Assembly: GCA_027489355.1 (NCBI GenBank)
Contig: JAIXZY010000035.1
Coordinates: 1-64,000, forward strand
Source: Paracoccaceae bacterium
Lineage (GTDB): Bacteria > Pseudomonadota > Alphaproteobacteria > Rhodobacterales > Rhodobacteraceae
Length of the DNA: 64,000 nucleotides
Reading direction: 5' to 3'
Part shown: one piece after another, positions 27,380 to 34,614 of the stretch
How positions within the stretch are numbered: position 1 is the stretch's first letter
Layout: every line of letters begins with the position of its first letter
Program-made: the position numbers and the translations under genes
The notes under the pieces: model-generated
Databases searched by the model: none
What the model was told of the DNA's origin: nothing
Seen by the model: only the letters and a program-made list of their open reading frames with translations

Positions 27380-28312
27380 TCAGTCGTAGAGAACCGCAGC
27401 GATGTTCGCGTCGGTCATGTTGGTCTTGTCATACCAGTAGAAGCCGGTGTCGATGACCTTGGGCAGCTCTTCGCCCTTGATCGCCTTCGCGAGGCTGTCC
27501 ACCACGCACTGACCGATGCCGACCGGGTTCTGGGTGATCGAGCCGATCAGGGTGCCCTCCATGATGGCATCCTTCTGGCTTTTGCCGCTGTCGAAGCCCA
27601 CACCCACGATCTGCGCGCCGGTTTCCTTGATCGCCACCGCCAGGCCGATGGCCGCACCTTCGTTCGAGGCGAAGATGCCCTTGATCTCGGGGTTCGCCTG
27701 CAGGATCGCCTTGACGTTGTCGGCGGCCTTCAGCGCGTCGTTGGCGTACTGGACGTCCACGACCTCGATCTTGGGATAGGCTTCCTTGATGCGGTTCAGG
27801 AAGCCGTCCCGGCGCCCGATCCCGGTGGCGGAGGTCTGGTCATGGATCACCGCGGCGATCTTGCCCTCTTCCCCGATGGCCTTGGCCAGCCCGTCCGCCG
27901 CAGCCGCCGCGGCCGCCATGTTGTCGGTGGTGCAGGTGGTCAGCGGCAGGTCGCTTTCGACCCCCGAGTCGAAGGCGACGATCGGGATGCCGGCGTCGGC
28001 GGCCTTCTGCAGCGCGGGGACCTGGGCCTGGCTGTCCAGCGCGGCAAAGCCCAGACCCTGCGGGTTCTTGGCAATGGCGGCGTTCAGGATGTCGGTCTGC
28101 TTGTCGATCTCGGCCTCGGTGTTCGGGCCTTCGAAGGTGATCGTGACGCCATTGCGCGCCGCCGCCTCTTCCGCTCCCGCCTTCACGGCCTGCCAGAACT
28201 GGTGGCTGAAGCCCTTGGCGATGATCGGGAAGTAGGTCTCTTGCGCGAAGGAGGGTGCCGCGCCGAAGGCAAGGCCAAGCGCCAGCGCCGAAGTCAGTAG
28301 GGTCTTCTTCAT
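27380..28312 (-). CDS. RbsB-like sugar/polyol ABC transporter substrate-binding protein
   Basis: A 310-aa periplasmic type-I binding protein with a signal peptide (MKKTLLTSALALGLAFGAAPSFAQ). The fold blocks FSHQFWQAVKAGAEEAAARNGVTITFEGP, IPIVAFDSGV and IFASNEGAAIGLAVAI belong to the ribose/inositol binding-protein family. It is the last gene of the minus-strand run hydroxylase-Rieske-ATPase-permease-binding protein. The ligand is unknown; ribose, inositol or an inositol derivative are the family's common ligands. Confidence 0.92.
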   Translation of the reverse strand: MKKTLLTSALALGLAFGAAPSFAQETYFPIIAKGFSHQFWQAVKAGAEEAAARNGVTITFEGPNTEAEIDKQTDILNAAIAKNPQGLGFAALDSQAQVPALQKAADAGIPIVAFDSGVESDLPLTTCTTDNMAAAAAAADGLAKAIGEEGKIAAVIHDQTSATGIGRRDGFLNRIKEAYPKIEVVDVQYANDALKAADNVKAILQANPEIKGIFASNEGAAIGLAVAIKETGAQIVGVGFDSGKSQKDAIMEGTLIGSITQNPVGIGQCVVDSLAKAIKGEELPKVIDTGFYWYDKTNMTDANIAAVLYD

Positions 28313-28383
28313 GTCTCACTCCCTTTGGGTTTACCGGTGCGGCTTCATCCGCATCCGGGTCGTGTGTTGCTGTTGTTCTCTGC

Positions 28384-29388
28384 TCAGGCCTTCTTGCGAA
28401 GCACGATGTCGATGAAGACGGCGACGATGATGATCACGCCGGTGACGACGATCTTCCATTCCTCGAGCACGCCCATCACCCTGAGCCCGTTGGTCAGGAC
28501 CGACATGATGAAGGCCCCGATGATGGTGCCGATCACCGTGCCGCGACCCCCGGCGAGAGAGGTCCCGCCGATGACGGCGGCGGCGATGGCGTCAAGCTCG
28601 TACCCCAGCCCCAGCGCGGGCTGGGCGGAGTTCAGGCGCGAGGACACGATCAGCCCGGCGATGCCGCAGATGCCGCCGCAGATGGCGTAGGTCAGGATCT
28701 TCCAGCGGTCGACGTTGATGCCGGACAGCCGCGCGGCCTCTTCGTTGGAGCCCAGCGCAAAGATCATCCGGCCGATGATGGTGCGGTTGAGGACGATGGA
28801 GGCGATGATGGCGACGATGAACATGATCATCACGCCGTTGGGGATTTCGATGCCGGGAATGAGCCTGGTGATCGAGCTTTCCGGCGAGAGCAGCCCGTAG
28901 TTCGGCGTGTCGTTGAAGTAGATCGGCTTGGCCCCGGAAAAGACCAGCGCCAGGCCCCGGGCGATCTGCATCATCCCCAGCGTGGCGATGAAGGGCGGGA
29001 TCTTCAGCTTGGCGATGGTGGTCCCCGAGATGGCCCCCATCAGGGCGCCCGAAGCGATGGCGCCCAGGATGCCCAGCGGCAAGGGCATCCCGAGGTTCGT
29101 CAGGATGATCCCGGCCATGACGGCGGTCAGCGTCATCATCGTTCCGACCGACAGATCGATCCCGCCCGAGATGATCACGAAGGTCACGGCCACGCCCAGC
29201 ACACCATTGACGGCAGTGGCCTGCATGATCCCCACCATGTTCGACCCGGTGGCGAAGTTCGGCGCGAAGAGGCTGAAGAACGCAAGAAGCGCGATCAGCA
29301 CCACGAAGGCCACGGCCTTCTGCAGGGTCGAGGTGGTGAAGAAGCCTGGCTTTCCGGCGGCGGCGGTCTGGACGGCGGTGTCGGTCAT
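28384..29388 (-). CDS. RbsC-like sugar ABC transporter permease
   Basis: A 334-aa inner-membrane permease with about ten hydrophobic segments. ISGGIDLSVGTMMTLTAV and IGGTSLAGGRGTVIGTIIGAFIMSVLTNGL are the RbsC/BPD_transp_2 signatures. It begins 12 bp after the ATPase gene and pairs with it and the binding protein. Confidence 0.93.
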   Translation of the reverse strand: MTDTAVQTAAAGKPGFFTTSTLQKAVAFVVLIALLAFFSLFAPNFATGSNMVGIMQATAVNGVLGVAVTFVIISGGIDLSVGTMMTLTAVMAGIILTNLGMPLPLGILGAIASGALMGAISGTTIAKLKIPPFIATLGMMQIARGLALVFSGAKPIYFNDTPNYGLLSPESSITRLIPGIEIPNGVMIMFIVAIIASIVLNRTIIGRMIFALGSNEEAARLSGINVDRWKILTYAICGGICGIAGLIVSSRLNSAQPALGLGYELDAIAAAVIGGTSLAGGRGTVIGTIIGAFIMSVLTNGLRVMGVLEEWKIVVTGVIIIVAVFIDIVLRKKA

Positions 29389-29400
29389 GGGATCCCCTGT

Positions 29401-30924
29401 TCAGGCTGCCGCGCTGGCACGCCGGGTGGCCAGCGTCATGATGTCTTCCTGGGTGGCCGTGCGGCCGTCGAGCTCGCCGGTGATCCTGCCTTCGCACATC
29501 ACGGCGATGCGGTGCGACAGGCGCAGCACCTCGGGCAGTTCCGAGGAGATCACGATGATCGCCTTTCCCTGCTCCGCGAGGTCTTCGAGCAGGCGGTAGA
29601 TTTCGGCCTTGGCGCCCACGTCGATGCCGCGGGTGGGTTCGTCGAAGATCAGAATGTCGCAGTCGCGCAGGAGCCACTTGGCGATGACGACCTTCTGCTG
29701 GTTGCCACCGGACAGAAGCCGCGTCTCCTGGTGGATGTGCGGGGTCTTGACCTTGAGCTTGCGGACATAGTCCTGCGCCACCTGCCCCAGTGCGTCGTCC
29801 CGCATGAAAAGCGCGCGCGAGACGAAGCGCCGCCAGGACGCCATTGTGACGTTGTCGCGGACCGACATGCCGGTGACGAGGCCGAAGTGCTTGCGATCCT
29901 CGGACAGATAGGCGATCCCGGCCGCCACCGCGTCTGCGGGGGTCGCGATCTTCCGTTCGGTGCCGTGGATGTGGATCGCTCCGCTGTCCAGGGGATCGGC
30001 GCCGAAGATGGCGCGGGCGACTTCGGTCCGGCCGGCGCCCATCAGGCCGGCGAAGCCCAGGATCTCGCCCTTGTTCAGCCGGAAGCTCACGTTGCGGATC
30101 GTCGGGCCGCGGTTCAGGCCTTCGACGCGCAGCACCTCATGGGCGGTGCCCTGCCCCGTCGCGCGATGCTGGTCGGCCAGTTCGCGTCCGACCATCAGCT
30201 GGATGATCGTGGACATCGGCGTTTCCGCGGCAGGAAGCGTGTCGATGTACTGCCCGTCGCGCATGACGGTGACGCGGTCGGCGATGCGCTTCACCTCGTC
30301 CATCCTGTGGGTGATGTAGACGATCCCGACGCCGTTGCGCTTGAGGTCGTCGATGACGCCGAACAGATGCTCGACCTCGGTCTCGTTCAGCGCGCTGGTC
30401 GGTTCGTCCATCACCAGGACCCGGGCGTTGTAGGACAGGGCCTTGGCGATCTCGACCAGCTGCTGCCGGGCGACCATCATCTGGCCGACCTCGGCCGCGG
30501 GGTCGATGTCGACGCGCATCCGCCGGAAGATGGCGGCGGCGTCGCGCTTCAGCCTTGCCTCGTCGACGAAGATTCCCAGGCCCTTGCGCGGCTCGCGGCC
30601 GATGAAGATGTTCTGCGCGGCCGAAAGGTGGTTCATCAGGAACAGTTCCTGATGGATGATGCTGATGCCCAGCGATTGCGCGGCCTGGGGGCTGGGCAGG
30701 CTGACCGGCTGGCCGTCCACGCGGATTTCGCCGCCGTCGGGCTGGTAGACCCCGGTCAGGATCTTCATCAGCGTGGACTTGCCTGCGCCGTTTTCCCCCA
30801 TCAGGGCATGGACCTCGCCCGGGCGGAGGTCGAAGCGCACCCCCTGCAGGGCGCGGACGCCGGGAAATGACTTCTCCACCCCCCGCATCTCGATCACGAA
30901 AGGATCGGATGACTGATCCGTCAC
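29401..30924 (-). CDS. RbsA-like sugar ABC transporter ATPase (two nucleotide-binding domains)
   Basis: A 507-aa double ATPase. The first domain has Walker [13 protein letters not shown] and Walker [12 protein letters not shown]. The second has the degenerate loop [14 protein letters not shown] typical of RbsA/MglA/XylG proteins, then [15 protein letters not shown] and [16 protein letters not shown]. It energises import of the compound bound by the downstream binding protein. It starts about 80 bp after the Rieske gene on the same strand. Confidence 0.94.
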
Positions 30925-31004: not shown

Positions 31005-31316
31005 TCAGATTTCAATCAGGATGCGTCCGCCCTCGACCCGAGCGGGATAGGTGCGCAGGTTCACGCAGGCGGGAAGCCGCTTGGCTTCGCCGGTGCGGAT
31101 GTCGAAGACGCCAGAGTGTTTCGGGCATTCGATTTCGTAGTCCATCACCATCCCGTCGCTGAGATGGACGGCTTCGTGGCTGCACAGCCCGTCCGAGCAG
31201 AAAACCTCGTCCCCGGTCATCCGGTAAAGCGCGAAGGTCCGGCCCTGGTGGTCGAAGCGGCGCACGCCTTCATCCTCGATCTCGTCCAGCCCGCAGGCGT
31301 CGATCCAGTTGGTCAT
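31005..31316 (-). CDS. Rieske [2Fe-2S] ferredoxin
   Basis: A 103-aa soluble Rieske protein started at the ATG at 31316 ([17 protein letters not shown]). The cluster ligands are C-S-H in [14 protein letters not shown] and [13 protein letters not shown] (CxH...CxxH). It lacks an oxygenase domain, so it is an electron carrier. It lies 22 bp downstream of a di-iron hydroxylase gene and should deliver electrons to it. A similar oxygenase/Rieske pairing (MocD/MocE) is known in rhizobial rhizopine catabolism. No ferredoxin reductase is encoded nearby. Confidence 0.9.
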
Positions 31317-32349: not shown

Positions 32350-32470
32350 CCTGCGGGCCTTTCCAGAGCGGGCGATCCTGTGCAGAAACCGGACGGATCG
32401 GCCGTGCGGGAGACCGTGCCGGAGTGCGCGCTGTTAGCGCAAGCTATTTCCGCATTTCGCGTCACCAACC

Positions 32471-32487
32471 GCCTCACTTTACCTCAC
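32471..32487 (-). promoter_or_regulatory. Candidate LacI-regulon operator upstream of the hydroxylase operon
   Basis: On the minus strand it reads GTGAGGTAAAGTGAGGC, two direct GTGAGG half-sites 10 bp apart. It matches 15 of 17 bases of the site at 34512-34528 upstream of the panB-like gene and shares its half-site with the 33588-33606 palindrome. Confidence 0.55.
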
Positions 32488-32572
32488 TTTCATGGGCTGG
32501 TGGCGGCCGTGCCAGCGCGCGAGACTGTCCGTGACGCAAACTGAACCAGACCTCCTTGCGCGGCGATTCGTC

Positions 32573-33571
32573 TCAGGTCGCGCTGAATCCGGGCAGGTTG
32601 AAGCGGGTGTAGACGCCGAAGGACAACAGCCGCTCGGCCCCCTGACGCGCCGGTTCGGGGTCGGCGGCCAGGGCCAGGGCGGTGGACAGAAGTTCGCGCG
32701 GGTCCCCGGCCAGCGCGAAGTCCATCGCCCCGGCCCGCAGCAGCGGGACGGTGACCGGGTTCACCTCATGCCCAACGACCAGCATGTCCGAGGCCCGGCC
32801 AGCGGCGCGCAGTGCCTCGATCAGGCCCACATTGCCTCCGCCCACGTTGTAGATCGCCCCCAGCGCCGGATGGTCGCGCAGAAGTCGGGCGACGGCGGCG
32901 CGGGTGAGTTCGGCGCTGTCCTCGCCCTGTGCCTCTCCCGAGATGACGACCTTGGGGAAATTGGCCCTCAGTCCCGAGCGGAAGCCGATTTCCCGGTCTT
33001 CATGGCAGCGGAAGGCCGGGCTTCCCAGCACCACGCCAACGGTCGTGGGCCGGTCGCCCAGCATCCGACCGATCAGGAAGGCCGCCGTCTGGCCCACCGC
33101 CCGATCGTCCAGCCCGACAAAGGAATCGCGGGCCGCGGGAACAAGGTCCGAGATCACCGCGATGATCCGCTTGCCCCGCGCCCGGGCGGCTGCGAGCAAG
33201 CCGGTCATCCGGTCCGAGTTCTTGACCGTCAGGATCAATGGGTGCGAGACGTCCTTGCAGGCCGCCTCGACAGCGCGCAGGACGGTGCTGTCATCGGCCA
33301 GATGCAGATCGTGGAAGCTGCCTTTCGCGCCGCTGGCCGTCCAGGCCGCGCGCATCTGCCCCATCATGCCGCGCCCCACCCGCAGGACGATGTCGGCGGT
33401 AGCGGGACGCGCAACGGGGTCGCTGCCGGGGGACATCAGGCGGCGCAGCGTTTCCTCGACCACCATCCGCGTGCGGTCGTGGACCCGCCCCCGCCCGTTC
33501 AGCGCGCGGTCCACCGTCGCCCGGGACAGACCAGTTTCCCGCATGATGTCAGCGACCGAGACGCGGCGCAT
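32573..33571 (-). CDS. LacI-family transcriptional regulator
   Basis: A 332-aa regulator. The N-terminal HTH is VSVADIMRETGLSRATVDRALNGRGRVHDRT, and the hinge and a periplasmic-binding-protein-like sensor domain follow (IAVISDLVPAARDSFVGLDDRAVGQTAAFLIGR). It has no signal peptide. It lies between the hydroxylase/ABC operon and the panB-like gene, all on the minus strand. A perfect 19-bp palindrome lies 17 bp upstream of its start, suggesting autoregulation. The ligand is presumably the transported compound. Confidence 0.92.
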   Translation of the reverse strand: MRRVSVADIMRETGLSRATVDRALNGRGRVHDRTRMVVEETLRRLMSPGSDPVARPATADIVLRVGRGMMGQMRAAWTASGAKGSFHDLHLADDSTVLRAVEAACKDVSHPLILTVKNSDRMTGLLAAARARGKRIIAVISDLVPAARDSFVGLDDRAVGQTAAFLIGRMLGDRPTTVGVVLGSPAFRCHEDREIGFRSGLRANFPKVVISGEAQGEDSAELTRAAVARLLRDHPALGAIYNVGGGNVGLIEALRAAGRASDMLVVGHEVNPVTVPLLRAGAMDFALAGDPRELLSTALALAADPEPARQGAERLLSFGVYTRFNLPGFSAT

Positions 33572-33587
33572 GAGGCAATCCTTGACT

Positions 33588-33606
33588 GTGAGGCATCATG
33601 CCTCAC
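33588..33606. promoter_or_regulatory. Perfect palindromic operator upstream of lacI-type gene
   Basis: GTGAGGCATCATGCCTCAC is a perfect 19-bp palindrome centred on C at 33597, between the lacI-type start (33571) and the panB-like stop (33637). Odd-centred palindromes of this size are typical of LacI-family operators. Confidence 0.7.
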
Positions 33607-33636
33607 TCTGCCCCTGCGCCTTCCGTCCCGCAAGTG

Positions 33637-34425
33637 TCAGAGCGCCGCAGCCGCCCTGGCGAAGGCCTCGGCCTCGGCCTCGTCCATCCAGACTTCGTGC
33701 CGGCGTTCCGGATATCCGGCGCGGGTCACATCGTCGGCGAAGGCGCGGAACGCGGCGATGCGCTTCTGCTGCAATTCTGCCTCGAGCGCGGCAAGGTCGG
33801 CATAGCGTTTGGAATGGCGCGGGTAGTGGCCGGTGTTGGTTCCCAGTACATCGCAGGAGAAGAGATACTGCGTGTCGCAGACCGACCCGCAGCCCATGCC
33901 CATCGTGATCATCGGCGTCGCACGCGTGATGTGGTCGGCGAGTTGCACGGGCACGACCTCGACCTCCAGGAATGCCGCACCGGCGTTCTCGATGTCCTTG
34001 GCCTTGCGCAGGACTGACAACGCCTCGGGGGCGAGGCGGCCGATGGCACGAAATCCGGTCCATGCGGCGAGATTCGGGACCAGTCCGACATGGCCGGTGA
34101 CGGGGATTCCCTCGCGCGCCATCGCCTCGATGAAGCGCGGGGAATGCGAGCAGTAGATCGCGTCTGCGCCACGGCGAAGGGCATCGAACGCGGCGCGGAC
34201 GGCCTCATCCGGGGTGGCCGAGGACCCGTGCGGCATCCCCGCCGAGATCAGCGCCGAAGGCGCCGCGGCGCGGATCGCGGGCAGCGTGTGGTCCGCTTCG
34301 CAAGAGAGGACGGTGATTCCCGCAGTCTCGGCGGCAGCGGCTTCGGCGGCAGTGTCGACATGGACCTGCACCCATTTGCGCTGGCCCTTCTGCTGCAGCA
34401 ACGTCGCGACGGTGGTTTTCGGCAT
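33637..34425 (-). CDS. PanB-like protein (ketopantoate hydroxymethyltransferase superfamily) with altered metal site
   Basis: A 262-aa protein started at the ATG at 34425 (MPKTTVATLLQQKGQRKWV). The C-terminal half aligns with PanB (IPVTGHVGLVPN, AKDIENAGAAFLEVEVVPVQLADHIT, GMGCGSVCDTQYLFSCDVLG). The catalytic Glu of the VE-VVP block is kept. The two Mg-binding Asp positions of true PanB (LVGDSLG, LLADLPF) are replaced by ITVLSCEAD and ALISAGMPHG. It is therefore unlikely to be the pantothenate enzyme. It may be co-regulated with the hydroxylase/ABC operon through the shared operator. Confidence 0.8.
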   Translation of the reverse strand: MPKTTVATLLQQKGQRKWVQVHVDTAAEAAAAETAGITVLSCEADHTLPAIRAAAPSALISAGMPHGSSATPDEAVRAAFDALRRGADAIYCSHSPRFIEAMAREGIPVTGHVGLVPNLAAWTGFRAIGRLAPEALSVLRKAKDIENAGAAFLEVEVVPVQLADHITRATPMITMGMGCGSVCDTQYLFSCDVLGTNTGHYPRHSKRYADLAALEAELQQKRIAAFRAFADDVTRAGYPERRHEVWMDEAEAEAFARAAAAL

Positions 34426-34511
34426 GGAATGCGCCCCCTGGAACTGGTCCCCTGCGCTAGGGGACTGGGCATCGCGAAGGCAATGGAAAAGAAGGCGCAT
34501 CCGGGTCGGAC

Positions 34512-34528
34512 GCATCACTTTGCCTCAC
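34512..34528 (-). promoter_or_regulatory. Candidate LacI-regulon operator upstream of panB-like gene
   Basis: On the minus strand it reads GTGAGGCAAAGTGATGC, matching 15 of 17 bases of the 32471-32487 site. It lies 87-103 bp upstream of the panB-like start. An additional half-site AAAGTGAGGC is present near 34580-34589. Confidence 0.55.
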
Positions 34529-34614
34529 CTGGTTGTTCATGGGGGCTTGGTCGCCCGCAGCCGAGCCACGACTGGCCCCAAAGTGAGGCTGGAGCCCGAG
34601 GCCGATTCGAAGCG

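Follow-up and report, generated by a model that had tools for sequence, protein, structure and literature searches.

A LacI-type regulator without a hinge helix may read direct and inverted pairs of one half-site at a membrane hydroxylase locus

How can one locus carry a palindrome ahead of its lacI gene and direct repeats of the same half-site ahead of the neighbouring genes, and does it take one regulator or two to read them? The question arose in the window (the whole 64,000-nt stretch of DNA analysed), in which the gene order was fnrL (identified by NF045989), panB-like, lacI, hydroxylase, MocE-family ferredoxin and ribose-type sugar ABC transporter. fnrL, the panB-like gene, lacI and the hydroxylase operon were all on the minus strand. 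The target operon began with a membrane hydroxylase gene of the FA_hydroxylase family (PF04116; 31339..32349, minus strand), followed by a MocE-family Rieske ferredoxin gene (31005..31316, minus strand; TIGR02377 above cut-off) and by the ATPase, permease and substrate-binding protein of a ribose-type sugar ABC transporter (27380..30924, minus strand; profile matches). The lacI-type gene (32573..33571, minus strand) encoded a LacI helix-turn-helix, without a hinge helix, and a ribose/allose-binding-like sensor domain. The panB-like gene (33637..34425, minus strand) belonged to the ketopantoate hydroxymethyltransferase family (PF02548, 131 bits), and its product scored 105.7 bits with TIGR00222 against a cut-off of 207.6, well under the level of a true PanB. 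In several genera, the panB-like gene is kept next to mocD-type hydroxylases.

A first-pass annotation had named three candidate operators built from the half-site GTGAGGC, and all three were read directly from the sequence at their coordinates. The paired sites were real; the unit itself is better written as TGANGCA with a 3-bp gap. Upstream of the hydroxylase operon, candidate operator O1 (about 32470-32487, minus strand; GTGAGGTAAAGTGAGGC) contained the direct repeat TGAGGTAAAGTGAGGCG, which was conserved in orthologous loci. A second direct repeat with conserved spacing, O2 (32532-32548, plus strand; TGACGCAAACTGAACCA), was absent from the first-pass annotation and lay on the other strand, 62 bp upstream from the hydroxylase O1. 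A weaker third site (32448..32464, minus strand; TGACGCGAAATGCGGAA), 22 bp downstream of the O1 start, aligned with TGATGCGAAATGC in orthologous locus L035. The panB-like gene was preceded by its own O1 (about 34511-34528, minus strand; GTGAGGCAAAGTGATGC; direct repeat TGAGGCAAAGTGATGCG) and, ~63 bp upstream and on the opposite strand, by a weak candidate O2 (34574..34590, plus strand; GGCCCCAAAGTGAGGCT). The window copy of this O2 had a good second half-site only and scored below the listed level, and it was better preserved at the matching place in L033, L035, L037, and L038. The palindromic candidate operator of lacI (33588-33606, strand not applicable) was GTGAGGCATCATGCCTCAC; its inverted form was also found in L034 and L035.

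From the sites, their conservation and spacing, and the linker of the regulator, we infer that one LacI-family protein would govern all three promoters via TGANGCA half-sites one helical turn apart. With a linker that lacks the hinge helix, its two DNA-binding domains could dock on half-sites that run the same way or face each other; docking on direct repeats would be possible because of this linker, a behaviour established for CytR. From the direct repeat centred near -72, LacI would most likely activate the hydroxylase operon and the panB-like gene, and the second repeat six turns upstream would probably be bound together with O1. At the lacI promoter, LacI on the palindrome over the start point would cause autorepression. 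The effector would probably be a sugar or inositol derivative, brought in by the operon's transporter. We assign a probability of about 0.68 to the reading that a single hingeless LacI uses direct and inverted TGANGCA pairs at the three promoters, activating its targets and repressing itself. Cooperative binding, which the first-pass annotation had raised, is possible given the opposite-strand repeat 61-64 bp upstream.

The sense of regulation was judged from promoter geometry. The presumed -35 boxes of the hydroxylase operon (TTGCGC; 32437..32442, minus strand) and the panB-like gene (TTGCCT; 34478..34483, minus strand) both lay 44 nt after the O1 start. A TTG started at exactly this distance in 16 of 23 hydroxylase and panB promoters and at 52-54 nt, about one turn more, in six further ones; it was also at 44 in the R. 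etli locus, which was outside the derivation set. Taking TTGCNN as the -35 box would place the O1 centre near -72 or -82, where activators sit, and therefore suggests activation at the targets. The opposite-strand O2 was 61-64 bp (six turns) upstream of O1 in 12 of the 14 promoters with a scoring O2, and 71-73 bp upstream in the other two. The presumed -35 box of lacI (TTGCGG; 33628..33633, minus strand) was 28 nt before the operator; TTGC kept this distance in L033, L034, and L035 and a similar one in two loci whose palindrome is wider. Because the presumed -35 precedes the operator by 28 nt, the lacI operator should cover the start point. The geometry suggests, but does not prove, activation at the hydroxylase and panB-like targets and repression at lacI, a point absent from the first-pass annotation.

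The same LacI on the same direct repeats might instead repress all three promoters by means of a DNA loop between O1 and O2, since six turns between the two sites would suit looping, most LacI proteins repress, and an operon with its own importer is typical for substrate induction. However, O1 stood 44 or ~54 nt ahead of the presumed -35, clear of the promoter, and its alternative spacing by one turn resembled that of class I activators. An operator overlapped the presumed promoter at lacI only, and we consider repression at all three promoters rather unlikely.

The preferred reading, with activation at the targets, depends on a protein that can bind direct repeats. The hinge helix of a canonical LacI protein (YxPNxxARxL) sits in the minor groove at the centre of the palindrome, where it packs against the partner helix. 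The window LacI matched PF00356 at residues 7-43 with 23.5 bits (E 4.7e-5), slightly below the 27-bit cut-off; in the genome search, the match reached 26.8 bits (27.3 when neighbours were included). Its sensor domain matched PF13407 with 100 bits and, in Foldseek, ribose/allose-binding proteins. It thus combined a LacI-type helix-turn-helix with a periplasmic-sugar-binding-protein-like sensor domain, which makes it a LacI-family member in the broad sense. In the linker alignment, the hinge helix after the helix-turn-helix was absent from all 20 orthologues, and a shorter Pro/Gly/Ala-rich stretch replaced it in each of them. The AF2 model of the window LacI had the linker as coil, with pLDDT<50 at residues 49-53; this low confidence says little by itself because the free hinge of an ordinary LacI is likewise flexible. 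Sequence and model agree, and they suggest that the linker is flexible or unstructured. The even palindromic operator with central CG, a canonical trait, was not found at the three promoters, which carried direct repeats at the targets and an odd palindrome at lacI.

A scan of the genome collection yielded 19 loci that encode a LacI orthologue (48-85% identity), ranging from Tabrizicola and Gemmobacter to Shinella and Geminicoccaceae, and a class-wide search for further orthologues gained just one more. The hydroxylase adjoined lacI in most loci, and the panB-like gene, ferredoxin, and transporter did so in many. The motif in the 19 loci was TGANGCA-N3-TGANGCA, a 10-bp direct repeat that mostly preceded the hydroxylase and panB-like genes, for example TGATGCAAAATGATGCA ahead of panB in L033 and TGATGCAAAATGATACA ahead of the L039 hydroxylase. 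When one mismatch per half-site was tolerated, the 45 upstream regions of 20 loci contained 34 such direct pairs vs. 0.61 expected from shuffles, and five inverted pairs at the matching offset vs. 0.24 expected, four of the five at lacI promoters; these counts are not independent, as the orthologous loci are related, and the consensus was picked after the sequences were viewed. At the sequence level, the half-sites occurred in both direct and inverted arrangement. The variable half-site spacing typical of CytR was not seen at the target promoters, where 10 bp dominated. Wider inverted pairs were confined to the lacI promoters of L036 and L039 (L036:4930-5000, TGAGGCATTCTTTCTGCAGAATGCCTCA; L039:4930-5000), and their half-sites look as if shifted one helical turn apart. 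The lacI operator was inverted in some species only, and direct-like in L040, L044, and L050.

The post hoc choice of the consensus was the reason for three further checks, namely later loci, loci with other LacI proteins, and a consensus-free count. Direct repeats of 10 bp were also present in three plasmid loci gathered afterwards, with regulators ~50% identical. Regions that go with the orthologous LacI had the motif, and those of hydroxylase/panB homologues next to other LacI proteins lacked it (16 vs. 33 regions, p=5e-9). On these sequences, the motif tracks the LacI orthologue rather than the target gene.

For the consensus-free count, the 12 LacI genes of the genome itself were too few as a control, and the control was therefore made across the bacterial family. 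In the 250 bp upstream of each LacI-type regulator, we counted every 8-mer that recurred with no more than one mismatch; the spacing obtained without a consensus was the one seen with it. The hingeless regulators (n=71) had 10-bp direct repeats in 28 cases vs. 7.9 expected and 11-bp ones in 19 vs. 6.3 expected. Canonical hinge regulators (n=45) showed no excess of 10-bp direct repeats (3 vs. 4.5 expected), and their even inverted repeats exceeded expectation (17, 15, and 16 vs. ~6.3); the VDR subgroup (n=20), whose YVRDxAAANLAR linker is hinge-like, had 3 vs. 2.3 expected and likewise an inverted excess. Hingeless and hinge-bearing regulators thus differed in the 10-bp direct repeat (28/71 vs. 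6/65, p=3.5e-5), with five of the 71 being YVRD linker variants that belong with the hinge group and have no 10-bp repeat; no such difference was found at 8-9, 12-13, or 14-15 bp. When linkers were relabelled automatically, four regulators whose linkers are non-canonical fell into the hinge class, and the contrast was weaker (25/65 vs. 9/73, p=3.5e-4). Many regulators of the family are related and the canonical set is dominated by one orthologous group, and after collapsing to 60% clusters the figures were 12/29 vs. 2/14 (p=0.07). The shared core of the hingeless sites was near TGAKGY; a TGAKRH pair occurred with period 10 in 17/65 hingeless and 1/73 hinge regulators, and with period 11 in 8/65 and 0/73. 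Many LacI relatives in the bacterial family seem, from their upstream regions, to read tandem direct repeats as well.

A rule that the lack of a hinge means a direct repeat was rejected, as it fails for LGLRRxLP and VERVLN linkers. Where the LacI was of the VERVLNGRGG type (L059, L060, L061, L063, L065, L231-L235), the region upstream of panB or hydroxylase had a different conserved element, about TCTGATCTGATCAA, that begins at the lacI stop codon. With the LGLRRxLP linker (L067-L070 and L076), an inverted element, about TTGATNNAAATCAATCAA, lay upstream of the hydroxylase, without the 10-bp direct repeat. KEI-type lacI genes (L163, L172, L176, L182, L192, L204, L206, L218, L015) had 11-bp, not 10-bp, direct repeats such as CACCTCAAAAACACCTCAG 20-30 bp before lacI, near the start codon. 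Outside the window in the same genome (G000:C38:9513-11814), a second hydroxylase (62% identical) adjoined a LacI with a GFYGLGSIQ linker, and upstream of this LacI another half-site formed a 9-bp repeat (TCGTCTCATTCGTATCA).

The first-pass annotation had called direct repeats odd for LacI proteins, which is right for canonical members (PMC4052901), and had allowed for a second regulator. Some second protein could indeed occupy the direct repeats and leave LacI on its own palindrome only, as canonical LacI proteins bind palindromes (PMC4052901) and direct repeats of 10-11 bp are known for the DeoR-type RhaR (PMC3870299). However, both arrangements used one half-site, lacI operators were direct-like in some orthologues, and hingeless relatives generally had 10-bp direct repeats ahead of their own genes. 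One regulator is preferred because the hinge helix is missing, the half-site is shared, and the motif follows the LacI orthologue; a second regulator is unneeded and appears quite improbable.

In the window, GTGAGGC alone was not enriched (9 observed, 9.1 expected), and half-site abundance was rejected as evidence; the pair GTGAGG-N4-GTGANG had two matches vs. 0.02 expected. A genome search for the paired motif, called for in the first-pass annotation and run with GTGAGGNAAAGTGANGC at ≤1 mismatch, returned two matches in the 4.2-Mb genome, both of them these sites, and the reversed-pattern control returned none. The broader TGANGYAWANTGANNCR gave three, all at this locus, the third being 32532-32548 on the plus strand (reversed control, 0). 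The regulon first suggested, comprising the five-gene hydroxylase operon, lacI, and the panB-like gene, was supported by a motif that recurs at orthologous promoters and, genome-wide, occurs at this locus only. The perfect 19-bp palindrome was rejected as evidence by itself, as the window held five such; the one at lacI is credible because its position and conservation back it. Chance repeats with no regulatory role would agree with the expected frequency of GTGAGGC alone, but are hardly credible for pairs that are far over chance, unique in the genome, and kept at the same positions and spacings in different genera.

In R. etli and S. numidicum, regulators ~50% identical had iolG and epimerase genes as neighbours; in Jiella, the neighbours were genes for a hydroxylase, MocE, and an FAD-oxidoreductase. 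The hydroxylase-MocE pair of the window resembles MocD-MocE, which serve the use of rhizopine (O-methyl inosamine) in rhizobia (PMC10107442, PMC3538637). A methylated inositol or sugar is a plausible effector.

Palindromes are the accepted form of LacI operators, and the main survey of LacI-family regulons looked for palindromic motifs only (PMC4052901); therefore the operators of a whole LacI subfamily may have been overlooked. Hingeless reading of direct repeats is possibly the norm in such a subfamily. We tentatively propose, at somewhat less than even odds, that a large alphaproteobacterial subfamily of hingeless LacI proteins normally uses tandem direct repeats (TGAKGY, 10-11 bp), and that in this branch the orientation of the second half-site sets activation (direct, upstream of -35) or autorepression (inverted, over the start). 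Confirmation would make it possible to predict the sites of many alphaproteobacterial sugar regulators that are so far uncharacterised, and the family would offer a natural test of the role of the hinge helix, with palindromes where it is present and direct repeats possible where it is missing.

Among known systems, regulators of the canonical LacI/PurR type bind palindromes, of which 96% have an even length and most have CG at the centre (PMC4052901). The window LacI shares with them the helix-turn-helix, the sugar-binding-protein-like sensor, a local transporter/enzyme regulon and, probably, autoregulation, but differs in its direct repeats, its odd palindrome without central CG, and the missing hinge helix. 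At sugar-use operons, RhaR also has a pair of imperfect direct repeats, with a period of 10-11 bp, but it belongs to the unrelated DeoR family (PMC3870299). The moc-boxes of MocR are likewise direct repeats ahead of mocD-type hydroxylase genes, in rhizopine operons; they were rejected as the same element, being 11-bp AAAGYGGYTCT repeats with a 13-bp spacer for a GntR/MocR-type regulator (PMC10107442). The LacI proteins beside rhizobial mocDE were rejected as orthologues, having 27-31% identity to the window LacI and another motif. FixV of Mesorhizobium loti, a LacI/GalR-type protein, was genetically shown to activate nifA2, and its homologues also adjoin mocD-type hydroxylase genes (PMC3538637); activation at our locus is suggested by the position of O1. 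The closest precedent is CytR of E. coli, a LacI-family member whose flexible linker relaxes spacing, so that inverted or direct half-sites are bound, with direct repeats reported at cytR and cdd (PMC3454398); the linker of the window LacI was read from sequence and model. CytR acts with CRP on weak, variable, mostly inverted motifs, and its direct form has a 1-bp spacer between octamers (PMC3454398). Unlike in CytR, the half-site of the window LacI is strong, the spacing is fixed, 10-bp direct repeats predominate at the predicted targets, and no CRP partner is evident among the sites described; these features are what is new with respect to the CytR precedent.
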